From Anadara kagoshimensis (Eukaryota; Mollusca; Bivalvia; Arcoida; Arcidae): 64,000 nucleotides of DNA. The DNA is taken from positions 42,911,490 through 42,975,489 of the forward strand of contig CM037869.1 in assembly GCA_021292105.1 (NCBI GenBank), read 5' to 3'. Positions within the stretch are counted from its first letter, which is position 1. Every line of letters begins with the position of its first letter. The notes beneath the pieces were generated by a model. That model searched no databases and had not been told where the DNA came from. It saw nothing but the letters and a program-made list of their open reading frames with translations. The position numbers and the translations under genes are program-made. This document shows, in pieces, positions 1 to 59,887 of the stretch.

Positions 1-90
1 TAGATGGATTTACGGGGCGGCAAATATATCAAGGGCGATCCTGGACACAGTGACATCAACTTATCAACAATTCTGTGCTGATCTCATTTC
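1..90 (-). repeat. Penelope-like 3'-end fragment, cut by window edge
   Basis: It matches the end of the reverse-transcriptase frame of the family (reverse strand: TTGATG-TC-TGTGTCCAGGAT, then ATATTTG). The tail itself lies outside the window or is lost. Confidence 0.6.
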
Positions 91-127
91 AAATTTGTAA
101 AATATTTGAATTTTCACAGTTTTGATC

Positions 128-176
128 GAAGCATAACTGTTGAGAAATTTTATTACAATACGGCCGTCTAGTGCTG
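128..176 (+). ncRNA. Degenerate hammerhead-ribozyme repeat, copy a
   Basis: It is aligned with five other copies. Stem III (ACGGCCGT), the GTC cleavage triplet and TAGTGCT are intact. The core CTGATGA reads CTGTTGA and the GAA is altered, so activity is not expected. The flank (TTTTGAT upstream, ATTGAAAC downstream) is shared with the family. Confidence 0.55.
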
Positions 177-482
177 CAAGATTGAAACAGGTTTAGTAAT
201 AATGTAAATAGGTTCAAATTTTCGAGGTTTAATGATTTTAGATCTTTTGCGGAGTTTAATTTTCGCGGAGTTGTAATACTGACTTTCAGATCGAGAATAT
301 GCATCATTTTGCGTGTGGTTCAAATTTTAATTGAAAATAGTCGACTTTGAAATAAAAGAAATATGTACATCACGAACATAGATATTCTCACAACAATTAG
401 GTATATATCATCTGAACCCTAAACTAAGAGAGTGTACTAGTCCATTTGTTACCAACCATTAGTAAAAAGAATAAATACGAAC

Positions 483-608
483 TTTTATTGCAAGACTTTC
501 CATCTGTCAAAAGATCAAAACCATCAAAACAGGAACACATATAACTCCCATCATTGTTCTCACATTTCTGTTCACAACCATCAATCTTCTTGGTACATTC
601 ATCTACAT
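483..608 (-). CDS. Exon 37: calcium-binding EGF domain
   Basis: It encodes 41 complete codons beginning D-V-D-E-C with six cysteines (EC, GC, KC, MC, SC, SC), the calcium-binding EGF pattern. It is entered in phase 1 from exon 36. The donor is a non-typical GTTCGT, so the 3' edge is slightly less certain. No stop codon is met, so the gene continues below position 1. Confidence 0.8.
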
Positions 609-3600
609 CTAATCATTAAAAATACAAAATGTTAAAGCAGAAAATTAACATGAAATGCGACATGAAACTTATACCTTTACAATTGAATAACGTCTGTATA
701 GCTCAACTATAGTAACGAAATGTTATTTTCTTTAGTTGTAATTGTTGGAAAATTTTCTTACGAAAATCCGTACGTGAAAAAGTTCCATCGTTTTCTTATC
801 ACCGCTAACTAATTTTCTTAGAAAAATCAAGTTGATACCACCATTCTAGAACAGTCTGCCACGATATAGGCAAAACAAATCTTGATTTGTATTTAAAACA
901 CCACTACAAGTGATACCGTTGTAATATGGTAATCCTTATATATCGTTAAAACAATTTATTGTTATTTAAGAATACTTAATACTTAGGAACACCTGTATAT
1001 GCATCGTTTAAATTCAGTTGCTATAAAATATGTATATATTTTCTCAATTACTTTATAGAGACGTCTTGTCTCATCCTACTTTTTGGAAATATATGGACTT
1101 ATTCATAAATTAATCTGTATTTTATTTCTAACTAACTACTCAATAAGTCTAAAGTTGTAATAAATGTTAAATGTTGTAAAAAATTAAGACATACCCACAC
1201 ATTCACTGCCATTAACCAGGTTGTATCCACTCATACATGCGCAATAATAACTTCCTACCGTATTGGAACAATTCTGACTACATCCGTGATTTGATTCCGA
1301 GCATTCATCGATATCTAAAATAATAATGTTTAATGATTAAAGTAAGTTAGCGTCAGTCTAAGGTATGTCATTTTTGGGAAGTTGACATTAACAACAAACG
1401 ACTGAGTCCTTGTCCAAATAAAATGCAACTTGCAAATTAGTAACTTTGAAAACTTGCAAATTAAGTTACACACGTGAACCTTTACTATGGAAGAAAGGCC
1501 GGGTCCTTCGGAAGGGTAAGCTCTTCCTTGTTTATTAACTAACTACACCTGTCACGCGTGCTATCAAAATTGAGAATGTAAGGAATATCATTAGGAAATA
1601 ATGGTAAATGTTTCTGTAAGAATTTCTCAGTAGTTGGACTGTACATTCCTCTCTGTATTGGAATGTTAAAAAATATTGAGCTTAACCTAAAGAATATGTG
1701 TTTTACATACCGTGTGACAAAAGGTTTCTTTGCGTTGAATAAAAGAAAAAAACAAATCGATAACATTATACACCATTTAAAAGCTTCTTATTGTTAAGTT
1801 TGAGGATATAATTTAAATTTTTCAATTAAACTAAACGGTCTACTCTATATATCCCTACTGAAGGTTCTACTCATATCTTTTCAGGCATATAATGAAAAGA
1901 AAATACAATTAATAATAGTGTCTTTACTGTTTGCATGTGGGTTACATAGGTTTATCCGGTAATTAATTTTTATTTCTTGGACTATGTTGGTCTTTTGGGT
2001 TTCTTTTCAACATCTTTGAAAACAGTTTTGGTTTCATAATTTTAGTCCAAGCACTATTGATGAGGAATTGTATTCCGAAACGGCCGTCATGTGCTGGAAA
2101 ATTGACCCTTGTAAAATAGGTGATCTTAAAGATAACTTTTTGTTTAGTTAGGAAACTTAGGTTTTAATGAATTCAATTATCATATTTGATGGTAAATATT
2201 TATGACTGCAGTGGTTTAAATAAATAAAAAATAAAAATGCAACTAAGTTTTAAAATGTCTTCAATTTCATTAAAGATGAAACGCATTATTCGAGTTTAAC
2301 TGGTGGCTAACGATAACGTTCCACATGTTTTACAATATATAAAAATCAATATGTCCATCAGTCTGACCGGTTTGCTTGTCTTAAATTCTCAAAATTGTTC
2401 CATTACGCCAAATTCGATTTATGGATTTTTATTAAATAAGTTACGAATATTTATGAACATGAAATAACATATCCCAATACCAACTTCATTTGTATATGCC
2501 AAAGTTCGAGGTCACGCGATCTCAACAATCAATTAGGTATATCTTGAGACGGGGTCATTTGACTGTAGATTCATTACCATGAATAATGAACTTATACTGA
2601 CCATCACACTTTTGTCCGTTTTCGACATAACCTTCTCCACAAGACGAACAATTGAAACCCCGTCCTAAGGCTATTTCCTCGTCTGGTGATAAGTCGGTAC
2701 AGGTTCTATTATTAGAACACGGAAAACCTGCACAACCGTCTACTTCATCACTACAAAAATCTCCTGTAAGAATAGAAGTTAGTTCTCAATCATTTTAATA
2801 TTTAGCGACTCGCTTTTATCCTGCTAGAAATACTAGTATTGTTTTATAATTTGATATATATTATTAATACTATCAAACACAAAAATACCAAGTATGTCGA
2901 ATACTAATATATTGTCAAGGAGTCTACGTATTTTCAAGACTAGAGTAGAATAGTTAGTATGAAAATAATTTTCTTTTTTTTTAAATGTCCATGTAATATT
3001 CACATTGTCTGCACAATAAATGGAATAACTGGGATATTCAAATTTATATACAGTATACAACTATAAAATCTATTTCAGATTTTCTTTTTTTCTTGTACTG
3101 TGTCTTGCTTGTTGTGGTTAGATTGTCCACTGCACTTTTACATGTGGATTCAGTCACAAATGTCTTTGCTCTATTTCAAATTACAAACATTGCAAGAACA
3201 AACGCGAAACAAAACAAAAGAAAAAGCAAGACACAAAACATAATCCCATTATTGAACATTGATTGTCATCCGCCTTACATGAAATAGAAACTTAATTTAT
3301 CCGTTTGCGGACAGCCTTCAACTGCTTCCCTTATTTTAGAAACAGTCAAAAATATTTTGTTAAAAAACTACCTGTCCATCCAACACTACAGTTACAAACA
3401 GCATACTTGTAGTAAGATGTATTTGAATCTCTTGTATCATCAAACAAACAATCCCCATGTCCACTACAGTTGTTACATACAACTACAATGACATCGAGGG
3501 CAGGAGCAGCAGCACCGCTGTCATCAATAGCAGTTATACTGAAATAAATTATTATAAGATACATTAACAATACCATACTATTGCTTAATACGGAATAAAA

Positions 3601-11740: not shown

Positions 11741-11776
<36 letters not shown>

Positions 11777-14700
11777 CATACACACGCTGCACCATGCCAT
11801 AAGCTCACATGACCTTTGGTCAGGTGAGCTAAAAAACCATTAGTATTTTGAATGATTTATGTAAATCGATTTGTAAAAATTTACCCTTGTTGATGGCAAT
11901 AGACGACTGGCAAATAGCGCATAACAAGAAACACCATTTTGATTTAATTTTATTTTCATCCATCTCCAATCAAATCGAATGCTTCTTAATGAACAAGGAC
12001 AGTTATATCTGGAACTGTACAGATGGTCAATATAAGATGTCTGGCTGCTGTATTTGTTGTACCATTGATAACAGAGTTGTCTGTAGTTTACTTTTTTGTA
12101 TCTGTCATCTGATAATTTGTATATATAGAAACCGTCTATGCCAACTACAACAAACAAAAATAGAATGTTTTTACATTCTATGGTACAACATGCGTGTAAC
12201 AAATTTGAATACTAAAAAACAGGAATGTAATTATTAATTAAAATTTTCCGAATATGCAAAATTTAACAAAGCGTAGTTGTGACATTATTAAAATTAACAT
12301 AAAAATGAGGGTGAAATTAACATGGAAGTATGAGACGTCAAATATATCTAGAGCAATGCTGAACACAGAGCCATCAAACTTATTAACAATACTGTGATGA
12401 CGGTCATACAACTTTTTGAGGGCCTTGATAAGCCTATGCTTGCATTATCAAAGTGTCAACAATTTATTTGCAAGCAGCCTGCTTCGATGTACAAAGTTCC
12501 CGCAGTGGGAACAAGCTCTACCAAAGGGTAATGAATCTTAGGACCTTGTCAGCTTTTCATCAATCATGATGCTTCAGATCATTGCTTTTAAATGATAATA
12601 TATAATAATTTTCACATTAAGAAAAAAGATCTTGTATCAGATATTAATATACAAAATAGGAGAGAAAAATGTGCAACCTAAACAAAACATTAACTTGGAA
12701 TAGACCACACAAACGTTGACACAGCAAAAGTAACCATAAAAGTAAAAGGCAAAGACATGTTTAAAATCTGACTCAGAAAGACTAGGATTTGGATATTTAT
12801 ATGGAATAAATAACATGATTTTAATATCATTCAAAATGATCCTTTAAAAGAGAGGTAAAACAACCCGATGTTCCTTGTCACGACAGGCGTGGCAAGTTAA
12901 AAACCCTGCCTGTATATTTTGCCTTCAATGAACTAAATTTTTGCCACTTCACCTTTAGCTGGTAACGTCTCGATGTAATGAAAATACTCTTGATTGGGGC
13001 AGTAAATTCTACTTATGCAATGAATTACTTAGACCTGTAACACTCACCATTTCCTCTGAGTGTGCCAATTTTAAATGCTTCATCATGGAAAGAGAACTCA
13101 TTTTGTTTATAATTATACAATCGGTATCCCATGGCTGCTTTGGTTCCCTGTCGTATCTTTGTACCCATGTATATATAATTAAACATGACGAAGGAGTCAG
13201 ATCCATCTGTCACCAAAACACATTGGAATGAAAGTCCCTAGAATAGAACAAGGAAATAAAATAGCGTTGTCCCAGCTGATAAGGCTTCCAACAACATTAT
13301 TCTCGTTTGTAAGAGATTCTACCTTGAATGTCTTATTAAGGAGCTTGGTTTAGATAGTATATCAAATAACCCTGCATATTCTAGAACTAATTTTACCAAA
13401 GATGAAGTTCTTTCCAACCATAGGGGAGTTCTCGAGTCTTTTGGTATCAATCTTAAAGAGGAAGATCTTGATCTTCCTTACTTGTATTGGATTCCTAAAC
13501 TTCATAAAAATCCATACAAGGAAAGATATATAGCAGGCTCATCTAAATGTACTACTAAATCATTATCGGTAACTCTAACACAAATTTTGACAATCGTCAA
13601 AGATGGTCTTCAGTCTTATTCAGAAAAAGTATATTCTACATCTGGAATCAACCAAATGTGGATTCTAAAAAATTCTAAAGAATTACTTGAACATCTTGCT
13701 TCTAATACTTTATCTCATGTAAAAAGTATAAAAACATTTGATTTTTCTACACTATACACCACAATCCCTCATTCTAAATTGAAAGAACGTCTTAAAGAAA
13801 TTATTCACTTGTCTTTCTTCTACAAAAACAGTAAGCCAAGATACAAATATCTGGTGCTGAACAGGGATTCTGGTTATTTTGTCAAGCATCATACGGATTC
13901 CAAACAAAAATATACTGAAGATACCATTAACAAAATGTTGGAGTTTTTGATAGATAACATATTTGTTGTGTTTGGTAATATAGTATTTCAGCAAACAATC
14001 GGTATACCAATGGGTACAAACTGTGCACCATTGCTTGCTGATTTGTTTCTTTATTCTTACGAAGCAGAATTTATGCAGAACCTTGTTAAATCTGGAGAGA
14101 AAACTGTCGCCAAATCATTCAACTCAACATACAGATACATAGATGACGTTCTGTCTCTAAACAATCCTAAATTTGGAGACTATGTAAATGTCATCTATCC
14201 TAGTGAGCTTGAAATAAAAGACACGACTGATTCCTCAAGTTCTGCTTCATATTTAGACTTATACCTGAATTATGACGCACAAGAAAGGCTACATTTGAAA
14301 CTTTATGACAAACGTGATGACTTCAATTTTTCTATTGTCAACTTTCCTTTTTTATGCAGCAATATACCTGCTTCTCCTGCTTATGGTGTATTTGTTTCCC
14401 AATTAATACGCTATGGTAGAGCTTGTTCCCACTACGGGGACTTTGTACAACGAAGTAGGCTGCTTGCAAATAAATTGTTGACTCAGGGATATTGCAAGCC
14501 TAGGCTTATCAAGGCCCTCAAAAAGTTTTATGGCCGTCATCACAGTATTGTTGATAAGTTTGATGTCTCTGTGTCCAGGATTGCCTTGGATATATTTGAC
14601 GTCTCATAGTTCCATGTTCCTTTCACACAATTTTGATTACACACGTGACGGGTGTAGCTAGCTAAACAGGAGGTGCTTACCCTTCCGGAGCACCCGGCCT

Positions 14701-17700
14701 CACTTCCCTGGTGGAAGTTCACGTGTCTAACCTAACTTGTCAGTTCCAAAGTTTTTACTTTGCTTCTGGATTGTGATTCGGAAATGGATAAGTATGTTTG
14801 TTTTTGATTTGTATCATATTCAAATCCGTTAAGAGAGTCTACAAAAGATAATTTTTATTTCACTAATGCATCCCCCTATTTAAATGTAAATAACGTAATT
14901 TTGGTGTTGATGTGGGGCCGTTTTTCCCTAACCCCTATCGTACTAACCAGCAATGAAAACAATGTCTCAATTTGAAAGACAGATCAGGAGTGAAATTGAA
15001 TACTTTCTTGTAATACAAACACAAACATTCCAATCCATGTCCAAATCAAGGTTCTAAAGGAAATTAAAATGTTAAAACAGGCAAATTTACAAACTAGGTA
15101 AAGTTCCACCAGGAAGTGAGTCCGGGTGCTCCGGAAAGGTAAGCGTCTCCTGTTTAGCCACAAGTGTATTTAAAATAGGGAATGATAAGAACATGGAACT
15201 ATGGATCGACGAATATATCATGGGTTAGTTTAATACAGAGGCATCACACTTATACTTGTAAAAAATGATAACTGATTACATAATAAAACGGTTATTTCAT
15301 AGGACTTTCTTGGATATTTTGGAACAATTGAATTCATTTTCTCATCGAATCATTATGATCTATGTCACGAAATACCTGATAATTTCAAAAACAACTAGAA
15401 ATTCGTTAGCCCAACATATTTCGATATAGGAAAAAAATTATAAATTATGATATTGGCTATTTTGTTTCGTTATAACAAGATACAATCTTGATTGGTGGCA
15501 TTTATATATTGTCTCGGTCGGATATCAACGGATTTTTCTCAATACGTATTCTTTATTATTGGTGATCCAAAATGTGGTTTAATGATAAATGTATATCAGC
15601 ATTAATGTTACTTTGGTACATAATCAATGTTAAACCTAATTTTAGATATATTGCTGACATACATCAACATACCCGATAAGTAAAAAAAAATATTATATAC
15701 CTCAGATTTCTCCAAATTTCCATTAATACCAACATTATCCCACGTCACTATTAAGACCCATTCAGCATGAAAGTTGGATATTCCATAAAAATGTCTGACA
15801 TCTCGTGTAGCTGTTGTTAAAATGTTATACGTCTTGCCATTGTCGTGAAGTATATTTTTTCTATCGTAAGCCTGATAGTATATATGGGAATTTGCATACC
15901 GAGTGTCAATATCGGTCCAAAATGGTGCAATAAAATCAATACCAGCTAACTGATTGAATGGTATTGGTTCTGGTGGATTGAAATTACGTGCAACTGTGAA
16001 TGATATTAGACCGTTTGATCCAATCTGAAAAATGTAAAATAGTTTCAATTTTTATATAAACAGCTGGACCTATCCTGAATATTTTCGCTACTAATGAATA
16101 GTTGCTTTTATTCCCTTGCGATTTAATTCCGCTATATTTGTGGTTTGACTTATAGCACGAAATTAAATACCAATTGCATTTTTTCATGTAGCATTAATTT
16201 AACTGATAATACGGACAGAAAATTGTTTACACTCGCTACTGCACCACGAAATTTTATACCCGTGAATACGTTCTAGTGTTTGAGCCGTGAAATTTTATCC
16301 TCACAAAATTAAACAACTATACAGTATTTATAGTTGCATAATGTTGTCATTCACATAACAATCCATACAAATTAGGTTTAATACATGACCTTCCACCTAG
16401 GAAGTGAGGCAGGGTTCTCCGGAAGGTTATAATTAAATTAAAACCGTCACCAATCAAGTTTTAATTTTCTGGGGTATGATGAAAGGATGTCGCCTGTTTG
16501 TATTGTTGGATATCTTTCATCAGAAACTGAAAACTCGTTTACAATTAGAATGATTTGCATCATGAAATGACATTTAAAATTGGATTGATTCTTATTCAGG
16601 AGTTCAGAAACAAATTGCATGCTTAGACACACTAAATCTTGTTGACATTAAACTAAAAGTGCATTTATTACCGAAATAATGAAAAACAATTTAGGACAAC
16701 TACAGTGTTTCTTATATTGAATAAGCTTATATCCTTTAGTCAATTCCATGCAAACTAAAGATATCATTTATAACAAAAATATTAATCTTAATTATTGATA
16801 AAACATAAACGAAGGCTCATATGAAAATAAATACATGAGAAAACGGCATTAACCCTTAAGAATGGATAATGTTCAAACGTTCGCACCATATGTCCGATAT
16901 ATAACAATATATATAACCTTTTATACATATGAAAACATACACGGTTATAAAAGATGTACATGCATTTATAAATAAAGATAAATGTAAACACGTACTTGGA
17001 GAAAATCGAAAAATCTGTTAACAGTAGGAAAACCAATCGGTATAGATATTCGTGGTGACATAACCTCATCTCCTTCCATTAAAAAATCGCCTGACTGAAA
17101 TCCGTATGGATAAATACCTGTAAATGGATTTAGAACTTTTTAAAGATGAATTACTGTAAATGTATTTAATTTAGTGTTCATTTATTTTCACGGTTTAACA
17201 AATTTAGACATACCCGTGCAGTTATATTTTTTTACGTTTTTTGAGATATGAACTATAACACGATGAGCATATAATAATTTCGCTTGGTATTATTTTTCGT
17301 GCAAAACAAACGACCGCGAAATAAGCGAAAATTATTACACCTCGAAAAAAATGCGTTTACAGTAATTGTATTAAAAACTAGAAAAACTGTGAGCCACAAA
17401 CTAACAAAAAATACCCCCGCTCGCAAAAATCCATCGGATCAAATTTTAAATAGGAGGTGCACATCTACAATATATCACAAAGATTGTGTGAAAGTTTTAT
17501 GAAAATCCATGAAAGGGTTTAGGAGGAGTTGCGGATAAGAGATAAGTACCCTAAGGTGTAACGGAAGGACAGACACCCCTATCACTATATACCCCCCACT
17601 TTTTAAGCGAGGGGTATAATAATAACAATAGCATAAAACAAACATAACTGGGAATAGATAAGATAGTTTTCCAAGAAACTTGACGTTTAAAAGAAAAATA

Positions 17701-35700: not shown

Positions 35701-38700
35701 AATTATACCTCAATTATGACGCCAAAGAAAAGCTACAATTGAAACTTCACATCTCTTATAGAAGTTTACATCTCATTCGTAGTATATAGTTACTATTGAA
35801 TAGCTACAGATTGAAAGGCATATGCTTTAATTGTTGACATTATTTTAATTCTTACCTGCAACCATCTTCGTAGGTCATCATTCCAGAATTGTTAAAATGT
35901 GAAACTATAGTTAAGCATCCGCTACCTATTGCGTAGCTGGTAATGTTTCCATTGCAAACTAAAATATAAAATTGTCATCAAAAACGAATACATGCAACAA
36001 TGTTCAAAAATTCAAAACAGAACTAATGAAATATCTTTAAAATATCTAGTTTCACAATTTTGGTCCAAGCATTACTGATGAGGAATTGTATTCCTAAATG
36101 GCGACTAGACAAGTGCTAAAAACTTAAAACTGGTATATGTAAATTACATATTGTTACCGGTATATCTGCTGGTGAATGTTTCCATCAAACATACTAATAC
36201 ATGTGCGAATCACAATCCAGAAACAAAGTAAACTTTGAAACTAACAAGTTTAAACACGCGAACTTGCACTCGGGAATGAGGACGTGTGTTTAGGTAATTT
36301 AGCATTCAGTAGGTAATAATTTCGTATTATATTGTCAGAAATTTACTATTGTCTAAATTTGCTGCTGATTAAAATTTGAAATTTTAGAAAACTAAGGTTT
36401 ACTCCCTCGTCCTTAGCTAAATGTAGTTCGCCGCCGTAGCACGTGATCAATACCTTTTAACGTTTGTGAGGAAAATTTTGGTAAACATCAACGTTACAAA
36501 TTCCCGAAATAACGTCGTTTTTACGGAAAAACGTCATATTGTGCGAGTCCATGTCTATTGGAAACAAGCTTTTCACAGACACGTTAGAAGGTATCACGTG
36601 GTACAGCGGCGAACCCCATTGGGTAAAATATAATTTGGTTCTTTTGGGTATCTTGAAACATTTTTAAAAAAAATGGTTTCATAATTTTGGTCCACGCACT
36701 TGTGATGAGGAATTGTATTTAGAAACGGCCGTCTAGTGCTGTAAAACTGAACCTGGTATGGTATGTAATATAGAACAATAATAAAAGTAAGTAAACTCGG
36801 TCATAGCAAATGCACTGAGAAAATGTTAACATCAGTGCCTTTAAACAAAAAACGATTACAATGACAGCACAAAATTACTGAGTCAGAAGATTTTAGTCAA
36901 TGATATAACTAGTGTCTCTTGGTGTTGTAATTACATTGTTTACTTATTCTCTCTGCCTCTGTCTATCCATCAGTGCTTCCTGTACCGAGATATTCAATTT
37001 TTTGGTCTTTCAGACTTCGTTAAGCTTTACAATTCAAGAGTCACTTTTTATCTTTCACTAGTTTTTATGTTACAAAATACTACATAATTGATTAACAACA
37101 AACATGTTTATATCATAGAAGACTGAAAATATGGATTTGACAACATAAAAATCAACAGAAATGGATCTGACAACATAAAAATCAACAGAAATGGATTTGA
37201 CAACATAAAAATCAACAGAAATGGATTTGACAACATAAAAATCAACAGAAATAAATTAAGACTTTAAACAAATATACAAATATAAGAAATTGCAAATTGT
37301 TAATATAAAAAAGAGGAAAAATACCGATATTTCATAAGAAAAGTTTTGTTAAGATAAGTATAGTGCCATAAATGTCATTTTTACGCTCCATTTGCATAAC
37401 ATATCGACCTCCGTATAGTAGACATCTCCAACATAACTGTATACACTGACTGTTACCGTGCATGTGAACTAAATGAGGGGTTATATCAAAACTTGGTTTG
37501 TTTTAAATGATAAAACACGACCAATTCCAAAAACCTCCGTCTTTTCTTTAATTACCTTTGTAATTCAAGATCCTGGACAAACTTTAAGAGACCTTTATTT
37601 CCCCCTAAATATGAATTTAAAAAATAAAGTTAGACTGGTTTTACTGGTTTTACAAGTATAGTTTTCATTGACAAACGAAAGAGGCGTTAACACCGGACAA
37701 AAAGTGCTGAAAATGTCAACAACAGGCGAAATTTTACGTCTCGGCAATCTTCGAAGTCGTGTATATTTTTATTTCCTGAATTGCATGTTCAACTTGCTCT
37801 CTATATTTTTATAACTTCATTCAACTTTTTACATTTATGTCTTATATTTTGAGTTTTTCTATTTATTTGATGTCTTTTGTAAAGGGTTACTAAAGAATAC
37901 ATATACTTTGAAAAATCTTAGCTGCTAGAATCAAACATTTTGCAGGAATTGATGTTCCTAATTACGTTCTATGTTTTGTAAACTTGTAACGAAAACTTTG
38001 GGCATCATTCCCAAAGCCACTAAAATCCCTTCTAAAAAACGCAGAATACCGCAATTATCAACAATAACCAGTGTATGTATATAGTGAGCGTGTCTCTGTC
38101 CACTGTAATATAATTGTTGAGGTTCTATACCAGACTTTTAAAAGGCACTAGAAGTTCCATCTTTTCCAGCAACAGCAACATTGAATTTTTCACACTTTTC
38201 TCTTATGGCTCTCTACTGTTTCATAATATTACTACTACTACTACTAACAATAATAATAAACAACTCTTGGAATAGGTAAACAACAATGACCTGTCTAATT
38301 GAACTTTAACTTAAATATTATCATGAATCAGTTCGTTTATGTGTAGGGAACATAGGTGTTCATATAGTCTACTACATCACGAGTGATATTCAACTCATAA
38401 AGTACACTGTGTATGTATTATCTTGAATCTAAATGCAACCAATTTATTGGGCGGATTATCCTATATGAATGTTCCTAATAAAAAGTCAAGCCGACAGGTC
38501 AATGTTGTTTGCCTATATAGGTCATCCACGATCTGATTGAATCTATATCATTATTACGGTAATTGTAACAAATGAAGCGTGTGCCGGCGTGTTTATACTC
38601 ATACGGCAATACGCAATTTACACCTGTATGGGTTATTTAAGCCATCCGTGTTTATAACCACTGTGTCATCAAATCGTGGACGGACTATAATATATGTATG

Positions 38701-41700
38701 AAGATGTAGACATATTCAATATATTACATTTACTAGTATAATGTAAAGTTAAATTAGAAAGCGTCCCCGTGTTTAGTTCACATTCACTGTCATAGTCGGC
38801 GTATACAGGTAGATTGGAGATGTCTAGTACCATGCACACTTTTGAAATATATCTATCCATGTCATCTTTTTTTGCATACGTGCCTTTTAATAGTATTCCA
38901 TATTTTGTTAAACTAGTTTTAATGTCAGAGAAACTAACTAATCAATAATGAATCGATAACGAAGAAAGATTTGAAGGAAAAACTCAAATGCAGATTAAGG
39001 TTGATCAAAGTTAAAATTAACAATCACCAGTATTCATAGAATACATATTTCTTGCAAGGTAAGTTTGGTATAATCTTTATGATAAATTAGGGATTTTTCT
39101 AATATAAAACTTACTACACGTCTGTGATACATCATGACAACAATCATTGTTAATGTGGCATCCGTAATCACATCTGCATCTTTTAGTGTTATTTGCAGAG
39201 GAGTAGCAAAACCAATAAGGAGTCCACCCATTGCAACACGCTTCAGTTTTTTCACATCCTAAAAGCAGATTTTTTTGACAAATATATTATACCCTTAAAC
39301 TAAAAACATAATAGTCCATATTCATTCCTCAACAAATAGAAATTTTAACTACATATCGTTCACCAGAAAACCAATACTTGGGTTTCCAAAGTTTAAACTC
39401 TTCCCATTTAGAAAGGTACAACCGCTTCATGTATAATTAAAGTTGAGAATGAAAAGAAAGTAAAACATGGAAATATAATCGGGTAATTTAAGATACATAG
39501 ACATCATAATTATTGTGATGACGGCCGTAAAACGTTATGAGACCCGTGATGAGCATAGGACTCCAATAACTCTGAATCGATTTTATTGTTAGCAGTTTGT
39601 TTTGGCGCATACAGTCCCCGCAGTGAGCTCAGCTTTACCATAGCGTATTAACTGTAGAACAAATACACCTTAAGCAATAGATATATTGCTGCATAGAAGA
39701 AACAAGATTTATTAAAATAAAAAGAGTTTAGTAAATATATAACCCGTGTATACCCCGGTATATTTTAAAGGTTGTTCAGTCTAATGAAATATTTTTGGTT
39801 TGTAAACATCCCAATGCCAGGAAGGGATTATTGCAGAGACTAATTTCGAATCAGTTTGGCCGTGTTCATGAGGTGTAGCTTTGAATTTGTATTTTTCGTT
39901 GTTATTATTCCTATTAAATGTACTTTGAGAATATAGCCTTTAAATCGGCTTCTTCTAAAAGTATTGGGATTAACTTCAAACAATATGACTTTGTTGAACG
40001 TGCAGACTCCCATGTTTGTCGTTGCTAAATTTTGCATTATCCACAAAATGTAAATTTGATAATTTAACTGTGATTTTAAATTTCTGTATCCGCTATACCT
40101 ATAAAGCTGTTGAAGTAATTGACTGATATGTTTGTATGATATTTCATTAAATTGTACTATTAGTTTAAAATTCATGTATTTGACACTCTCCCAAAGCTTT
40201 TGAACCAATATATAAAATTTTAACACTTGTTTGTGGGAAAAAAGAGAGGCTTGTGTGTGTCATTTGCTATTGATTGGTATAATATTGAGATTGATTTTGC
40301 TTTTTCCTGTAGGTGAGATCAAATGAAGTCCAAGATATATATAATATTCCACTGCGTTTAATTATTTAATATAATTTTTTAGCATTTTTATAATTACCAT
40401 TGAAACATTCCGCTATACCATAGTTCATTATATTCTTCACCATATCTGTTTGATTTATTAATGCAGAAAGAACGTTGGAATAATCACAGTTATACGGATC
40501 GTATCTAAGCTGATAATAGTAACAATATTGCAGCAATCTATCCACCTCTCTGAAATAAAATAAATCATCTAATAAAAGCGGTTATGTAAAACTCGATTAA
40601 AATGCTAGTTGAATAACATTTTATCCAATTAAACTTACATAGAAGTTATATTCGAAACAGTTAGTAATTTAAATATTGCATAATTATAATAGACTGCAAA
40701 TTGTTTTCATCTAGAACAGGAGAAGGAAAATGGCAGAAAATTGTCTGTCGTATCGGTTAAATTATGATATAATAATATGTAAACCAAAGGTAGACTAAAT
40801 ATACGTATGAATGGACATCGGTTTGATACCAATAACAATGGTAATCAGTTTCTTTACCAACATTTTAACCAGCCGGACCATTCTGTGTTATCTATGAAAG
40901 TCAGGCTTTTGGAAAAAATATACCACCATACAAATAGTCCTACATTAAGCACTCCATACCGATTACAACGGGAAAATTACTGGATAAGAGAACTAGGAAC
41001 TGCTTCGCCATATGGATGCAATGACAAAATTGTAAGCGTAGGAAATCTTTCAAGCCCGATTTGTCACAATGTAAATGTTTTACACTTGTTCAACAAAACA
41101 CCACGTGACAATAGAAGTCATGGACATCGCCGTTATAACAGACCCAATATCCATGATGTTAGTTTTCTTAATCCTTTACGATTCCTACAGAAACCTCTCG
41201 GATTACACCATATCCGAACTAAACTCTACTCTATACCACTATCCCGTCTTAGACAGTTACAAGAAGAATGCATATCTAAAACTACTATAGATTCTTATAC
41301 ACCAGAATATAAGCTTACTGCTATCATCATGGATATTGCTTTTAACAGATTATTTAAACTTGCTCGGGAAAACGATATTGATAACGATGGTCAACGCCAA
41401 TATCTTAAGTTACACTATGCTAACAAAGGCATAGATGCTATAAACATTTCCAATATTCTTCAAAATAAACAAGTCCAATCTAAAATCCCTGCTTATTTCA
41501 AAATTAATTCTCCACCTCTAGTTTCCTACTCCTACAATAAACCTATTGCATCCAAAATATTTAATTATAAACAAACATTGCAGTGTTTAAACTTTCATAA
41601 TTTTACTCCACCTACTTGCTCTTGCTCGTCTTCTCCCTATATTTATGGACCGGCTGGACATGTAATAACTGGTGATCTCAATATAATTGAGAACACGAAA

Positions 41701-44700
41701 TTAAGATCTTTACTTTCAAAAGGTCCTAAATATAGAAAAGCTCAACCTTTTACTTGGGGACAGAATTTCAGACTTGTCATGGATTCCGTTGAAGAGTACG
41801 CCAGACGTTGGGCTAAATTAGAAGATGTTGAGCTTGATATCTTATCCGACTGGATAAAGGTTGTGAGATCTTTCGTTAAAACTAGGATTGCCAAACTTAA
41901 AGGGTCTATGAGTACTAAACCGTCTTCAGTACTCAAGGATCCAGAAATCAAGGTAATTCTTACAGACATACACAACAAATATGTTGTTGTCCCAGCTGAT
42001 AAGGCTTCCAACAACATTATTCTCGTTTGTAAGAGATTCTACCTTAAATGTCTTATTAAGGAGCTTGGTTTAGATAATATATCAAATAACCCTGCATATA
42101 CTAGAACTAATTTTACCAAAGATGAAGTTCTTTCCAACCATAGGGGAGTTCTCGAGTCTTTCGGTATCAATCTTAAAGAGGAAGATCTTGATCTTCCTTA
42201 CTTGTATTGGATTCCTAAACTCCATAAAAATCCATACAAGGAAAGATATATAGCAGGCTCATCTAAATGTACTACTAAATCATTATCGGTAACTCTAATA
42301 CAAATTTTGACAATTGTCAAAGATGGTCTTCAGTCTTATTCAGAAAAAGTATATTCTACATCTGGAATCAACCAAATGTGGATTCTCAAAAATTCTAAAG
42401 AATTACTTGAACATCTTGCTTCTAATACTTTATCTCATGTAAAAAGTATAAAAACATTTGATTTTTCTACACTATTCAACACAATCCCTAATTCTAAATT
42501 GAAAGAACGTCTTAAAGAAATTATTCACTTGTCTTTCTTCTACAAAAACGGTAAGCCAAGATACAAATATCTGGTGCTGAACAGGGATTCTGGTTATTTT
42601 GTAAAGCATCATACGGATTCCAAACAAAAATATACTGAAGATACCATCAACAAAATATTGGAGTTTTTGATAGATAACATATTTGTTGTGTTTGGTAATA
42701 TAGTTTTTCAGCAAACAATCGGTATACCAATGGGTACAAACTATGCACCATTGCTTGCTGATTTGTTTCTTTATTCTTACGAAGCAGAACCTTGTTAAAT
42801 CTGGAGAGAAAACTGTCGCCAAATCATTCAACTCAACATACAGATACATAGATGACGTTCTGTCTCTTAACAACCCTAAATTTGGAGACTATGTAAATGT
42901 CATCTATCCTAGTTAGCTTGAAATTAGAGACACGACTGATTCCTCAAGTTCTGCTTCATATTTAGACTTATACCTGAATTATGACGCACAAGAAAGGCTA
43001 CATTTGAAACTTTATGACAAACGTGATGACTTCAATTTTTCTATTGTCAACTTTCCTTTTTTATGCAGCAATATACCTGCTTCTCCTGCTTATGGTGTAT
43101 TTGTTTCCCAATTTATACGCTATGGTAGAGCTTGTTCCCACTACAGGGACTTTGTACAACGAAGTAGACTTCTTGCAAATAAATTGTTGACTCGGGGTTA
43201 TTGCAAGCCTAGGCTAATCAAGGCCCTCAAAAAGTTTTATGGCCGTCATCACAGTATTGTTGATCAGTTTGACGTCTCTGTGCTTAGGATTGCCCTGGAT
43301 ATATTTGACGTCCCATAGTTCCATGTTCCTTTCACACAATTTTGGTTACACACGTTGCGGGTTTAGCTAGCTAAACAGGAGGTGCTTACCTTTCCGGATC
43401 ACCCGGCCTCATTTCCCTGGTGGAAGTTCACGTGTCTAACCTAATTTGTCAGTTCCAAAGTGTTTACTTTGCTTTTGTATTGTGAATCGGACATGGATTA
43501 GTATGTTTGTTTTTGATTGCAATGGAAACACAAGTTTCATTACACTACTGAAATATGATATATTTTATTGGATGTGACTGATGAATATTTATATATCGTC
43601 CGAGATATCAAAGATATCTCTGAAATATTAAAAAAAAGCTCAATGTATTGCCAAAACATGTATTTCTGCGAGAAATATCTTATTTCAATGAATAAGATTA
43701 TATTCGTAAATTAAAGAATATACTGAAAATAATTAAATTGATCAAATCGTAGCTTAGTACGACGACTAAAGGTATAAACATTCATCGATTGTTGAGAGAC
43801 TTTCATCTAGTTTGTTATTACGAAATCTTCAATGTTTCTACGTGCATTCCATACCATGCGTTATATACCCCTAGTTTAATGGTATTTTAGGCAAAACAAT
43901 GGAAATAATAATATTTGTTTTTTATGTTTTTTTTTCTGAATAGGGTCGTAGTGTAAACTCTTGGTAAAAGAAAATGGCTTGAAGAAATAACAGTACCCTT
44001 AAAGTGGTTATAAAGTGTGGCAGATAGGAATAAATCGTCAAATATAAACGTTTTATAAAAAAAATTAATAAAGGTCAAAGATTACAAGAGTACCACTCCC
44101 AACTTTTGGCGGGTCCCTAGATGGTGTAGTTATAGTATGTACTGTTTATGTTGTTCGTGTTGCACTCAACAGAGATTAATCACACAATCCCAATTCATAA
44201 AGTTTTCTTGGAAAAACAATTTTATTGGTAAAATGTCAGGGTAACAGGTTACCATGAAATAATTCACAGAAGATGCAATACAATGACAATAAGAGAGCGA
44301 TTACAACAGGTCGCAAGTACTCAGATAAATTCAAAAACGTTTTCGTCATGTTTAATCTGTAATTATCGAGTTGTTGTATGTGCCAAACAAAGATTTTAAT
44401 TCTTTTCGCTAAAAAAAATTGATTTTCTCGATAGTGTTTGTAAAACTTGCAATAGATTTATTTCCCAATGATGGAAATATTGAAATAGAAGTACAAAGAA
44501 AGAGAAGAATGAGGAAAATTACACTTTTTAACTGATTAGAAGTACTACTCGTAGTATTAGTAATGGTGTTTAACGTCCCAGTCAAGAATATTTTTCTTTA
44601 TCGACACGTCACCAGCTATAGGCGAAGATGCAGAAATGCTGCCTGTGCGTTGCGCTGATGGCATTATACAGCAGGGTTCTTTAGCTTGCCAAGCCCACCG

Positions 44701-47700
44701 TGACACGGGACCTCCTTTATTTTAAGTTCCCATCCAAAAGAACCGTGACTTTCATTTCGTAATTTCGAGTGCTTGGTGAAAGAAGTCTTATGTCAGACCC
44801 GGCCGGGGATCGAAACCACGGCCCTCCACTTACGGAGCGAGCACTCTACCAACTGGGCTACCGCAGTGGTTGATCAAAGTACTAATTCATGAACTACAAA
44901 CACTACTTTTATAATAATAATAAGAACAATTTTATTCTCATTATAATTATTATTTTTATTATTTATGCAAAAAATGGAAAAGGTAAAATGCATATACCGA
45001 ATTTATTTTTGTCATTTCATGTCATTAAATACTATTCTTTTTAAACAATTAATATATACTTACCGGCAAATTGATGATGGGGAATTTACTTTCCACGAAG
45101 GTGTATAATAACAAAATCCTATCACATAAGTGTATACCGCCAAACTATTGTCGCAAAATCCAATATTAATATCTTCATCTGTCACTTAATTTTAAGAAAA
45201 AGTATTAAAATAGAATATTTATTGAAATGCATTTATAACATCAAACATGAATAGTGATATACACAAAATGAAAAACTGTCTATAAGCCAGCTTATAGGTG
45301 GCTTACAGCGGGCTTATAGATGACCTATAAGCCTTCTGTAAGCCAGGCTTATAGATGGCTTATTGGCATTTAAAATATAAGCCATCTTAATATCTAGTAA
45401 TCAAAACCAAATGAAATTGCGTACCCAATCTTCTAGAAAACGGACGTTTTTATTGTATTATATTTAATAAAAAAGAAATAAATGGAATAAGTACATTTAT
45501 TTTTCGTTTGATTGTTTGTTTAAATTATCTTTTCTTATTGGTGAAGTTAAGTGAAGATAATTTACTTCCTCATTTATATCGACAAACATATATTATAAGT
45601 TATATATACAGGGCTTTGGCAGGTTACTCGGCCCCATGTACCCCGTCAAAGATTTATGTACCCTGAGCCGCAGGCGAAGGATACATTGATCTCTGATGGG
45701 GTATATGGGGCCGTGTAACCTGCCAAAGCCTTGTATAACGTTTTTGTCAACCTTCAAAGCGTTACCATTTGGATCATTTTAACTTCCACTTGTCGCCATG
45801 TTTGTTTACCGTAACTAGACGTCAACGATGTGCAAGTTACTTCCCTTTTACCGCTAAAGGTCGCGAGCGTTCATGTACCCCGGAAGATTTCCGAACATTG
45901 TTCCATGTACCCCGGCAAATTGACCAATCAGCATGCGAGAAATTTCTTCGAAGGGTGACAAAAGTAGAATATTTATGAGGACTTCTTAGGCGTTAGAAAA
46001 CGATCGATTTTTTGTGAGTTTTTTTTTTAAATATTTCAACACTAGTCTGCCAAAATGCTATAGAAATGATGGTAATTAAATGCGTTTTATTTATAAAGCA
46101 GGTACTCTGTAGTAGTTGACAACTTAATACTGACTTCAGAATCAATATAAGATCTTGAATAATACATAAAGTAGATACGATATTGTGATTTGGACATGGA
46201 TTAAAGTGTTTAGTTTTTATTCATACATTTTAATGTTATCCGAATGGGATATATATAGATTATCACATTTCACATCATACCCCATATTAGCCCGAGACCA
46301 ATATATTAGCCAGATGTCAGATAGGTCCTAGAGCTGGGCTGATGTCGGGTATGGTATGAAAAGAGTCATATCATATTCTTTTTTAAAATATGTATCTTAA
46401 AATGTATTTTAAATTGTACATTATTACTGTCAAATATTAAGGGAAACAGATAGTTCAGAGGTGATATTCTCACATACACATGTATGTGAAAAGGAAATCT
46501 ATCCATTTCCCCGATGCTGTCAATTTCCCTGTCTCGCCCTGGTTGAGACAGATCACACGAACCATCTCCCAGTCTGACTTTTAAATCCTATTCTATGAAA
46601 AAATAGAGGGTACGATCACTTACGGACACAAGATTGTTGACGTCATAATGATTTACGCAATAACATCAACCAAATTCGATGACGTCATTTTCACGGCACG
46701 GATGGTGGAATGAAAACGTAACATTTGATGCAAATATTTGTTTACAAATCGCGTTTTTATGTTGCCAGTTAGTGTAAAACAGAGATATCTCAAACTCGGA
46801 TGAATATTTTCAATGTGTTGGTTATTGAATAACAGCTTATCTAAGAAGTTCCGAAATATTCTGATATGGAAAATCGGTCCGAGTGTCGGGCCGATATTGA
46901 TATGGATTTTTAGCCCTAGGGCTGACATGGCTCAATGTTAAATAGCAATATCACATATGCAGAAACGCACATATAAATTGAAAAAAATATGATACTATGA
47001 TACTATGAAAATAATAAAATGCCTATTGTCCTTAACGCTCACCTGAGGATATGCATACATGATGCGGTAGTAAAATGTTAGTACAACTTGAGGTTAAATC
47101 TCAGATGGAGTTGATAGTTTAATCATAGTTTGGAGGTAAAGTTGAAGTTATGTTTAACTTGGCGCTTAATCTTTGTTAAAGTAAATAGTTTCGTCCGAGC
47201 TTGGAGTAAATAGGCAAGTGTTCATCATATAAAATTGATTATTTAAACAAGGATAGAGTAAAAAGTTTAATCATTCTTAGGAGTAAAAACTCTCAGTTAA
47301 ATTTGCATTAAGTCAACTTTAGTTAGAGCAAACAGTTAAATTCCAGTTAGTATGGAAGAATAAATAGTATCTTAACTTTGATTGTGGTTAAACTTCAAGT
47401 TTAACTATACTTAACATAAAGTGGGGCATCTTGTAGTAGGGCATCTTCGTCAAAGCCTTATACCCTAACCCTAAACTCTAACCCTAATGGTCAATAAAAC
47501 TAATAGAATAGACTAATAAATTTTAAGCAGCATGGCCAAACAGAAGGATATTTGCAAATTAATTACTACTTTGTTAAAAATAAGCTACTGTACATATACC
47601 ATAACTTAGTTCTAGCTAAAGTATCTGTATGGATAGTTAGTGAAAAGTACAAAGGTTAAGATCTAAGCCATGAGAGTATTCAAATACATCTGTGACCTTG

Positions 47701-50700
47701 ATCTTTGAACCCATGATCTATATATCAAATATGATTCTTAGGCTAATACCTACGGTATTCTTATATAAATGCCTTTACAAAATGTTAATAGTTTTCCATT
47801 AAATTAACCATTTCAGCATAAGTATGCACCTATGGCCTTGACCTTTGAATACTCGAGTACCGTCTATATATCAAAGTTATCGTAAAGCCAATACGTACAA
47901 TATTCTTATCTACATTTTTGACAAAACATTTTCTAGATAATTAACCATTTCTGTATTTGTCTGCATCTGTGACCATAGATCTTTATAACCATGACCTTCA
48001 TTCATATATCAAAATGATGTTAGGCCAATATCTACAATATTCTAAAATTCTAAAATACATTGCTATACAAAAAATTTATAGTTTTTTCCTGATAATTAAC
48101 CATTTCGGTTTTTGTTTGCATCTCTGAACTTGGCGTTTGATCCTAAAACCGTCATATGAAAATCATCAATATACATAAAGTTTATAGAAATCCCACAAAT
48201 TAACTAATTGTTTGCATTTGTAACCTTTGACTTGATCCCATCACCTTCATATCAATACCTGCATATTTCTAGTATATATGCTTAACAGAAAGTTAATAGT
48301 TTGACCTTTGAAATCACAACTGCCATCTATATATCAAAATGATAGTTATATTATTACCTGGAATTTTCTAATAAAATGAGAAACCTATGCAAAATGTAAA
48401 AAGTTTTCCGGATACCGCGAGGCTCGACGGACAACGTACGGCAGACGACGGACGGCGAATCATCGAAATAGCTCATCGGAGCTTTCCGCTCAGTTGAGCT
48501 AAAATGTTTTGGTGTGCTTTTTAAATTATTTACCGTTACATTTCAGAAAAAACTGGGAAATAACAGACTGTGGTAATATCTCCCCGATTAACCATTCGTG
48601 TATAGATGACAGATTACATGGTTGTACCATCGTAGCTAACCTCTTTCTAACACAGTCCAGTGCATACCGATACACCCTTATAATAAAGAAATATATTAGA
48701 AATAACGATACAAATGAGGTTCATTATTTATATTAAAAGGAATTATTAATAGCTGCTACATCAAATTACCGACCAATTATAATGATAAAAAAGTGGTATT
48801 AAACACCTGGTCACAGACTCAAAGTTGACATGTGGTCAATATCGTTTTCTTTTTTTATTATAACTTTGTATGTATCCACACAACCAGCTATCAATTATCC
48901 CATATAAGGATATAGAGGTGGAGTTGTTGAACTGAATTTTTTCAGTTTGAAGTGAAATTAGAAATTGTATGCAGTGTGCAGGCTTCTGAAATAAAAACTT
49001 AAGAAGAGACTGTTATTGTACATTAGGTCAATTCCAAACAAAATGATGACACTAGAAAAAAGTGTAAACTTTAAAAAATGTTGTCAAAATGTCTGGAAAA
49101 CAGGATTTTAGTAATAATTAATAATATATTTTTGTAAAACTCTACAAATCTTCAATACTTATTAAGGTATACTTCCTCATTCAAAATATTTTCTTAGATA
49201 CATTTGGTTAAATGTATTTTGGTTCTTTGGATATGTTTCAACCTTGAAGATATTTTGGTTTCACATTTTGGTTTAAGCGCTACTTTTGAGGAATAGTATC
49301 TTGAAACGGTCGTCTAATGCTGTAACATTAACACTGGAATAATATGTACTGTAGATTACTTTAATATCGCGAATATCAAATTCCGCGTACTTACATCTGA
49401 GCTTCATTTCGCGAATACGTGTATTCGCGTCCACAATCCAAGTGCATATTTAATTTCGCGTCCACTTCGTAGCGGTTATATAGTTATCTACCTGATTTTA
49501 AATTTGACTTTAAATTTTTTTTTTTGCGATTCTAGGAATATTTGTGTGATATATGAATTCGCGATTGAGAGTTCTCGCGAAATTACGCAATAATAAATCT
49601 CTCGCGATTAAAAAGTAATCTACAGTAATATGACTAAAAAAGATAAAATTACTTACCAATACAACAACACAATATAAAAAAACAGCAACATAAAAAATGA
49701 CAAAAAAAACGTATTTGGATTACATAAAACATAAATTTTGACATTAATACTTCATTTGACATGCGCAGTCATAATATGTTTATGCTTCATAATTTAAAAA
49801 CAAAATTATAACTCAAGTTAACAAATATTAAAAACTACAAATTTAATAATAATTATATCAATTATTTTTTAAAAAATGATAAAAGAATACTTACAGACAT
49901 GCCCCGTCTACCTGCATCATATTTGTTCTGTTATAGTGAGAGGGATATCGCATATATTGAAAACAGTTATAAAATTGGCTGTATATATAAACTCTATCGT
50001 TAAATGTGCTGTTACATATTCCATTTCCAGTATCGATGCCTTCTGAGAAAAAGATGTTATGCCAGGTTAAATAGCGGATTAGTTTTTGAAATAAGACCTA
50101 CTGAGAGCTGAAAGTTTAGTTTAAAAAAATATCAATCGCAAAAATAACTCCAACAATCATTATTTTTATCTTTAATCAGTGAATGTAAAATTACAATGAA
50201 TTATTTGAACAGAAAATATCAAAGATATAAACTTATACAGAGTTTGCACCGTAAAGTTGGCGTCAGGCCGCACTTGATCAATGCAGATAAGAACAACATC
50301 AGCAAATGTGTGCACCCTATAAACTTGCATCATATCCCCACATGGGAAAACCCATTTAAAATAGGCACTAATTGGAAAACAAATACAACATAAGCAGAAG
50401 AACAATGATATTGCTCCAGAAAAAAGTTGACAATAGAAAAATTTAGTCGTAATATATACGGGGAAGAATGCTGTAGCTGGGTATTTACTAAATATTTTAC
50501 TCATTTTATGCTAAACGATATAAAGATAACTGTAATAATATACGCACTATCAAAACAAGATTTCACATCAATACTAAAGGTGCTGTTAAACCAATTTGCC
50601 TCAGCAATCAATGCTTTCTCTCTTTGTGTTTCACTACAGGATAAGTATTTTGTAGATTGCAAGTTTGTATAGGCGTTCATCACATGCTTCACATACCTAA

Positions 50701-59617: not shown

Positions 59618-59689
59618 GGTCTGGGTAGCTCAGTGGTAGAGCATTCGCCTATAGTGCGGGAGGTCCCAGGTTCGATCCCCGGTGTGACC
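59618..59689 (+). tRNA. tRNA-like unit 1 (probably SINE head or pseudo-tRNA)
   Basis: 72 nt with A box TAGCTCAGTGGTAGAG, an anticodon stem TTCGC/GCGGG with a 7-nt loop reading CTATAGT (anticodon ATA by position), B box GGTTCGATCCCC and a T6 terminator shortly after. The acceptor stem pairs only in part (GGTC/GACC), so a functional tRNA is doubtful. Confidence 0.55.
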
Positions 59690-59815: not shown

Positions 59816-59887
59816 GGTCTTAGTAGCTCAGTGACAAAACACTCGCCTATAGTGCGGGAGGTCCCGGGTTCGATCCCCGGTCCGAGT
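59816..59887 (+). tRNA. tRNA-like unit 2
   Basis: It repeats unit 1 at a distance of 198 bp, with the preceding TGTAGCGGTCT also repeated. The B box GGGTTCGATCCCCGG gives a perfect T stem. The D arm is diverged (GTGACAAAAC). T6 follows. Confidence 0.5.

Follow-up and report, generated by a model that had tools for sequence, protein, structure and literature searches.

A stretch of 64,000 nucleotides of the Anadara kagoshimensis genome (assembly GCA_021292105.1, contig CM037869.1, positions 42,911,490 to 42,975,489; hereafter the window) contains a dispersed repeat in which a first-pass annotation, made from the letters alone, had recognised the decayed copies of a type I hammerhead ribozyme. 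The locus raises the question of what kind of element left these copies, and which enzyme moved it. The repeat is predicted to be a metazoan retrozyme without long terminal repeats (LTRs), with a unit of 339 bp that carries one type I hammerhead. We consider it probable, from the sequence comparisons presented here, that it is mobilised by a Penelope-like element (PLE) of the type found in the same window, via a shared 36-nt hairpin and a common copying start. Metazoan retrozymes with circular RNA have been published, and Mytilus galloprovincialis is reported to carry about 5,000 type I ribozymes, usually in repeats of 350–390 bp (PMC7229834, Cervera and de la Pena 2020). The same report names PLEs as a strong candidate to mobilise metazoan retrozymes, and a review states that no motif reveals the retrozyme partner (PMC7761336). 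A start signal common to a retrozyme and a PLE is not reported in the titles and abstract openings of the literature searched, which was mostly non-subscription; as far as that literature extends, the link by hairpin and spacing would be new, and it is moderately supported.

The ribozyme consensus, i.e., the majority base in each column of an alignment of six window copies, is AGCACTACTGATGAGGAATTGTATTCCGAAACGGCCGTCTAGTGCT followed by a final G, with a 7-bp stem I and a 5-bp stem II. It agrees letter for letter with the majority sequence previously read as a type I hammerhead, including the 7-bp stem I, and presents the type I layout in order (CUGANGA, stem II, GAA, stem III, NUH cut site, open stem I). 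A strict descriptor (exact core; stem I of at least 5 bp, stem II of at least 4 bp, and stem III of at least 2 bp with an A-U closing pair) matches the consensus once, and has 0 matches on both strands of the window and 0 in simulated sequence (200 x 64 kb, 12.8 Mb, one strand each). The genome, assembled in 36 contigs that total 1,115,223,567 bases, contains 3,061 exact matches to the 32-nt core that spans CTGATGA to GTC (1,592 forward, 1,469 reverse), against 0 for the backward-read control. Genome-wide copies therefore do not lack the CTGATGA...GAA core, a possibility raised in the first-pass annotation, since it is present thousands of times.

With an 84-nt query, the best 40 scored of 381 genome candidates are near-identical (best 99%). 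The majority unit, counted from the cut, is 339 nt long with a GC content of 33.9%; it starts TAGTGCTGTAAAATTAAAACTGGTATAATATGTAATTTAAACCCC.. and ends ..GGCCGTC. The loci examined contain it as lone units, as dimers and as arrays with at most seven units, the longest having seven ribozymes at 336–339 bp spacing in locus L042. This agrees with metazoan retrozymes without LTRs, which have low-GC units of about 170–400 bp that carry one type I hammerhead each and range from single to tandem copies. Among the 35 best-matching loci, a sample biased because it was picked by ribozyme likeness and from which five segmental duplicates were removed, 30 of 52 ribozyme matches are intact by core and pairing, 46 of 52 align gap-free, and 23 of the 35 loci have at least one intact ribozyme. 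These intact ribozymes, together with the tandem 339-bp units and the 3,061 exact cores, support the earlier view of the window copies as scattered, damaged descendants of an active source. The aligned block on which that view was based is real, but the family is longer, its alignment yielding the 339-bp unit, dimers, arrays and a common 3' end.

The Rfam type I model gives an intact genomic copy 28.1 bits (E value 1.7e-5; curated cut-off 34) and also matches one window copy (b, listed below), while it lists no type I hammerhead in the whole window at E<=10 or on the stretch 36000–36800, nor, at E<=1, in any of four loci that hold intact copies. If a dispersed repeat of another kind resembled a hammerhead by chance, a score below the curated cut-off (28.1 of 34 bits) and window copies without covariation would be accounted for. 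This reading is scarcely credible in view of the consensus, the thousands of exact cores (control 0), and the simulated sequence, 12.8 Mb of which gives 0 descriptor matches.

No LTRs are seen in the alignments of units and loci, which were no dedicated LTR search. An open reading frame (ORF) of its own for reverse transcriptase (RT) and GIY-YIG nuclease is not found in the retrozyme, which at 339 bp per unit, and 141–2291 bp of unit in the 34 insertions with the common end, is too short for the RT ORF of a PLE. The retrozyme of M. galloprovincialis is alike in its type I hammerhead, tandem arrays, thousands of copies and mollusc host (PMC7229834). Its unit measures about 350–390 bp as against 339 bp (34% GC) here, and circular RNA and self-cutting have been shown for the mussel (PMC7229834); a fixed insertion end and the PLE link are added here by sequence comparison. 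Plant LTR retrozymes are likewise non-autonomous and hammerhead-bearing with a circular RNA intermediate, the circle in Anadara being a predicted one; they differ by having type III hammerheads and LTRs, in contrast to a type I hammerhead and no LTR seen here (PMC7229834).

A mussel repeat was also compared. Its peptide has 29 relatives in the protein collection, which indicates that such a mussel repeat exists, its exact letters being provisional; a 15-nt piece of its ribozyme has 0 matches in the literature text. Its ribozyme letters differ from those of the Anadara family, and the stem differences look compensated, by eye only. In a search of 710 nt the family profile matches it with an E value of 1.5e-6. 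Of 15 flank pieces taken from window copies, 8 match it (<=10 of 500 shuffles as good) and 7 do not do so beyond chance. When the ribozyme is cut out of a profile of four window copies, what lies upstream stands only just clear of 1,000 shuffles, one of which attains its score, and no match is left downstream. Scans of viral contigs and prokaryote genomes list no recognised eukaryotic relative and 34 prokaryote places; a viral match (L001) was rejected, as it looks like chance. Stem III (unit 331–338, ACGGCCGT) is a perfect palindrome, and for this reason two ribozymes might pair through it as a dimer. Such dimer pairing has been reported for other weak type I hammerheads.

The ends of the insertions indicate how the copies were made. 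Two sets were used: the first derives from 40 loci with 49 unit matches, 38 being left after removal of five duplicate loci, locus-edge matches and matches of <=60 nt, and the second from the first 30 loci of the exact-core search, chosen by core and not by flanks (41 matches, 30 after like removals). The 3' end lies at unit 33–43 in 34/38 and 23/30 insertions, respectively, and position 37 is the commonest in both (16/38 and 8/30). The 5' ends are scattered over the unit, from 6 to 326 in the first set and from 28 to 319 in the second, and in the two sets combined just one falls six positions or fewer from the cut (L038, position 6). The 34 common-end insertions of the first set measure 141 to 2,291 bp, eight being longer than one unit plus tail, and 7 of 9 pieces in the window end at unit 34–44. 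The usual genomic 3' end is ATATGTAAT(T). The three bases after ATATGTAA are mostly TTA, where the unit itself has TTT, and the final T or the final two may therefore come from the element or from the target. Targets are AT-rich, and a run of A or a simple repeat is absent from the 3' ends of most listed copies.

Target-primed reverse transcription is recognised by a fixed 3' end together with ragged 5' ends, and copying appears to start inside the unit and to run back across the cut. The copies cross the cut and have their 3' end beyond it, so the template would have been joined there, as a circle or as an uncut multimer; a linear monomer ending at the cut is ruled out as the template of the 34 copies, since each of them crosses it. 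The same fixed 3' and ragged 5' ends and AT-rich targets are also traits of short and long interspersed nuclear elements (SINEs and LINEs), and a SINE-like element of a LINE, on which the hammerhead is a decoration, would present them as well. We regard this as highly improbable, as four loci with the unit contain no match to tRNA, nor to a 5S or 7SL head, at E<=1, most listed 3' ends have no A or simple-repeat run, and whole units are arranged head to tail around 3,061 exact ribozyme cores. The suggestion of a separate retrozyme-like or SINE-like element is thus borne out in its first half and rejected in its second.

The alternative of an uncut multimeric transcript of tandem arrays as template, for which the ribozyme would be dispensable, is rather doubtful. 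Genomic data would be alike for circle and uncut multimer, and the two units of several dimers resemble units of other insertions at least as closely as they resemble one another, a comparison biased by the picking of loci by their best unit. In L042 and L059, in contrast, the units of one insertion share private variants (by eye), as expected from rounds of one circle, although a homogenised array would also give them; comparison of units within and between insertions is not decisive and was dropped as proof of rolling-circle copying. The northern blots reported for the mussel show retrozyme RNA that is mostly circular (PMC7229834), which argues for a circle.

The candidate enzyme is that of the PLE, which is represented in the window by the following copies:

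13260..14809, plus strand: 5'-truncated PLE, with a reverse-transcriptase frame at 13260–14609 and its 3' end at 14809 (..GTTTTTGATT)
26999..28068, minus strand: third PLE copy, a reverse-transcriptase piece plus tail, 3' end at about 27000
36186..36288, minus strand: PLE tail fragment, between retrozyme copies c and d
40783..43518, plus strand: second, longer PLE copy with a broken frame, 3' end at 43518

In the genome, the best 94 scored of 71,900 candidates share 96–100% protein identity, and the PLE appears extraordinarily abundant and young. Among the 120 best of 3,642 relatives of its reverse transcriptase, the only named species is Pinctada imbricata (60–65% identity). The longest frame (L106) has 1,067 codons, with GIY-YIG at 203–292 and RT at 814–917, both matches being significant yet below the Pfam curated cut-offs. 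We take this order, GIY-YIG before RT, to be the permuted Naiad type. The 5' regions of L106 and ten more copies were compared. The sequence TGTCTCTGCTGGTGGAATTTTCCCCGAGGATACCATTAGCCCAGTCGC is found near the frame start in the four copies whose frame reaches 1,037 codons or more (L106, L107, L111 and L112, two of them with internal stops), and the remaining seven 5' regions stop short of this point. L111 and L112 are in tandem with further PLE sequence, and at both junctions (2/2) the 3' end GTTTGTTTTTGATT is followed by exactly 21 nt and then CTGCTGGTGG. The tandem junction has 27 matches in the 64-kb window, of which 15 end within five bases of GATT and none more than 6 past it; this clustering of tail ends at the junction marks GATT as the usual genomic 3' end of the PLE. 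Residues 20–130 of the PLE frame match no protein at E<=0.001 among 88 candidates, and the stretch may hence be non-coding. In L106, positions 651–795 (approximately), upstream of the shared hairpin, differ from the other PLE copies and read on in frame, so that the 1,067-codon frame probably opens with codons that do not belong to the PLE protein.

The retrozyme and the PLE have one block in common. Unit 45–88 matches the PLE over 44 nt with 77% identity (E value 1.4e-4, among ten stretches), and the local score of 38 exceeds the maximum of 33 in 1,000 dinucleotide shuffles. The earlier statement that the repeat shares no flank with the Penelope tail is true of the tail, but false of the whole PLE, whose 5' side carries the shared hairpin. 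This hairpin occupies unit 52–87 (36 nt), 14 nt past the commonest retrozyme end, and stands at the same offset in the PLE. The spacing from the 3' end to CTGCTGGTGG is 21 nt in the PLE and 20–22 nt in the retrozyme for ends at 36–38, the commonest retrozyme end sitting 21 nt before CTGCTGGTGG. By its sequence, the retrozyme would thus share with the PLE the place of the copying start relative to the common RNA block.

The minimum-energy fold of the hairpin is identical in the retrozyme (L098, L042) and the PLE (L112), namely ((((((.((..(((.(((....)))))))))))))), and the mussel repeat folds alike with a longer tip. The latter scores 61 against the PLE block (maximum in shuffles 35), better than the retrozyme does. 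Retrozyme and PLE hairpins differ at 8 of 36 positions, five of which are inside nine named pairs; all nine stay paired, two of them through a double change (P 0.0008, or 0.003 given five stem changes, under a simple model). When 17 of the 27 retrozyme sequences are aligned with 2 of the 3 PLE sequences (15 distinct rows), 94.3% of cells are paired, which 2 of 500 shuffles reach, and the covariation score is 0.110, which 0 of 500 reach. Ten retrozyme rows with indels or near-duplicate (L086, L066, two of L076, three of L042, L055, L059 and L036) were left out of this alignment, as was PLE L106, because its 5' part is flanking DNA.

From the unit, the intact ribozymes, the fixed 3' and ragged 5' ends, the multi-unit copies, the common hairpin and the equal spacing, all of which are present in the sequences, we infer the steps of cutting, circle formation, PLE binding and copying as follows. 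The transcript of tandem units would cut itself at GTC^TAGTGC, and the cut unit would be closed into a circle. The ribonucleoprotein (RNP) of the PLE would bind the hairpin at unit 52–87, and target-primed reverse transcription would start about 14 nt upstream of it, at ..ATATGTAATT (36–37 nt past the cut). Copying would proceed upstream through the joined ribozyme, at times for several rounds, and halt at varying points, with an outcome of one fixed 3' end, ragged 5' ends, and insertions that range from fragments to arrays. A PLE copy inserted on its own has the hairpin close to its 5' end, with none following its 3' end; in RNA of tandem PLEs, as in the retrozyme circle, it would come just after the copying start. 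The role of the hammerhead would be to make the circle that joins the signal to the start.

The PLE Poseidon of Anolis (PAc) provides a precedent for such an arrangement: its copying is reported to begin internally, its genomic tails match that start, targets containing ATT are preferred, and a motif to which the protein would bind has been proposed to lie within the ORF's first 172 nt (PMC11167929). The retrozyme is like Poseidon in its internal copying start with a hammerhead, fixed tail, tandem copies and AT-rich targets (PMC11167929), whereas the window PLE differs from Poseidon by having GIY-YIG before RT and no hammerhead found. The layout of the retrozyme resembles that of the Anolis PLE, and its hairpin is the likely RNA signal.

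Several observations speak against mobilisation by this PLE. The block in common spans no more than 44 nt, at 77% identity; under a looser scoring scheme its score is attained by 4 of 1,000 shuffles, and against L106 alone the retrozyme scores 37, with a maximum of 35 in 100 shuffles. The nine pairs were named after both sequences were seen, and the covariation of the hairpin rests on one distinct PLE sequence. Of the three pairs with a double change, one is spoilt because the row of L049 opens with a base outside the insertion. Sliding the structure by two columns yields just as many such pairs, although only 58.6% of cells are then paired. A hammerhead was not found in the window PLE, and in Anolis the ribozyme mutations are reported to have left insertion unchanged (PMC11167929). 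Some insertions end elsewhere (4/38 and 7/30), target duplications are weak (mean end repeat 3.9 versus 3.3 permuted), and the circular fold of the unit is no better than that of shuffles (-61.5 versus -59.3 kcal/mol, z -0.46; 60% of bases paired), in contrast to the highly self-paired circle expected of a metazoan retrozyme.

Part of this would fit a retrozyme moved by another element, such as a LINE or a different and perhaps hammerhead-bearing PLE, with the hairpin as a remnant of shared ancestry and not the working signal. The common block is small, the 3' termini themselves read differently (..GGTATAATATGTAATT versus ..GTTTGTTTTTGATT), the window PLE has no hammerhead found, and the comparison covers one PLE type among the autonomous elements of the genome. 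We nevertheless consider another mover unlikely, in view of the equal spacing from 3' end to block (21 versus 20–22 nt) and of hairpin differences that preserve pairing. Mobilisation by a PLE of the window type is preferred here, and it may apply more widely: the chances are about even that the partner of animal retrozymes is a GIY-YIG-first PLE whose RNP reads the 36-nt hairpin, that the retrozyme circle mimics PLE tandem-junction RNA, and that the hammerhead makes the signal-supplying circle. If true, this would suggest a reason for the retention of the hammerhead, since a circle sets the PLE signal downstream of the start, which is impossible for a cut linear monomer. The common hairpin and equal spacing make the guess of a PLE partner testable with one protein and a few RNAs.

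The window copies themselves, given with the part of the unit that each covers and its identity to the unit, are:

87..208, plus strand: retrozyme copy a, unit 257 to 41, 76.6%
130–175, plus strand: hammerhead of copy a, dead, with a CTGTTGA core, AAT instead of GAA, and one mismatch each in stem I and stem II
1983..2130, plus strand: retrozyme copy b, unit 235 to 41, 85.8%
2050–2095, plus strand: hammerhead of copy b, core altered at one site (TTGATGA), stem I with two pairs broken
2056–2090, plus strand: Rfam Hammerhead_1 match of copy b, 13.2 bits
19777..19814, minus strand: retrozyme fragment i, unit 2–39 only (ribozyme cut to usual 3' end), 38 nt, faint
26172..26218, minus strand: retrozyme fragment j, unit 233–276 only
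30442..30704, minus strand: retrozyme copy h, unit 75 to 37, 70.2%, absent from the first-pass annotation
30516–30472, minus strand: hammerhead of copy h, with CTGTTGT and TTA instead of GAA
30811..30988, plus strand: retrozyme copy g, unit 152 to 298, then 1 to 44, ribozyme core deleted
36030..36174, plus strand: retrozyme copy c, unit 261 to 67, 76.7%
36068–36117, plus strand: hammerhead of copy c, with TAA instead of GAA and a 4-nt insertion on the 3' side
36306..36408, plus strand: retrozyme copy d, 5' piece, unit 94 to 198, 86%
36617..36772, plus strand: retrozyme copy d, 3' piece, unit 221 to 39, 84.3%
36695–36740, plus strand: hammerhead of copy d, with GTGATGA and a stem II without its closing pair
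49163..49348, plus strand: retrozyme copy e, unit 183 to 34, 82.7%
49276–49321, plus strand: hammerhead of copy e, with a CTTTTGA core

The five full copies and the core-deleted copy are all where they had been placed; the list lacked the minus-strand ribozyme copy (30516–30472) and the fragments at 26218–26172 and 19814–19777. Every copy has at least one core change or loss, as had been said, and none is intact. Agreement with the majority of the other window copies amounts to 49/66 cells in the core, as compared to 75/96 and 111/150 in the flanks; the same measure gives 65/83 for stem I, 66/78 for stem II plus loop, and 42/48 for stem III. The six copies show no covariation beyond shuffles (318/500 pair equally well), and covariation of stems I and II, looked for as a mark of the family, is accordingly not seen among them. 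Core sites kept no better than flanks and the lack of excess pairing are what neutral decay would produce, and the window copies look like fossils free of selection.

The copies at 36068 and 36695 have the register expected of a single dimer that was broken (unit 261 to 67 followed by 94 to 39), and are separated by the PLE tail (36186–36288) and an inverted-repeat element (approximately 36428–36613). An exact 11-bp direct repeat, AATGTTTCCAT, is present at 35942–35952 and again at 36175–36185, directly after the end of copy c, and would rather suggest that copy c is a separate insertion. Copy c reaches the first letters of the shared hairpin (36166–36175). Direct repeats flank single window copies at c (AATGTTTCCAT), at h (TAAAAACTAAT) and, more weakly, at b, with none at the others at the score used; TAAAAACTAAT was dropped as a target repeat because the word belongs to the unit itself. 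Fragment i (19777–19814, minus strand) has the form expected of a product of copying a cut, linear RNA, as a single faint case.

The inverted-repeat element inside copy d resembles a miniature inverted-repeat transposable element (MITE):

36428..36613, no strand assigned: inverted-repeat (MITE-like) element inside copy d, arms at 36420–36447 and 36593–36620, ends set by eye

A relative is found at 17721–17916; the two copies are 86% alike and have inverted ends of about 28 nt (TTCGCCGC..GCGGCGAA). Two tRNA-like stretches, 198 bp apart (59626–59682 and 59824–59880; Rfam tRNA 33.9 and 22.8 bits), are perhaps tRNA-derived repeats. A near-palindromic hairpin at 45314–45375 resembles mir-9424 on both strands, at a score far below the family cut-off. 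A nidogen-like domain (Pfam NIDO) is encoded at 15608–16051 on the minus strand, and EGF-like, exon-looking stretches, recognised by eye only, lie at about 480–620 and 1195–1320; together these perhaps belong to a host gene of the extracellular-matrix type.

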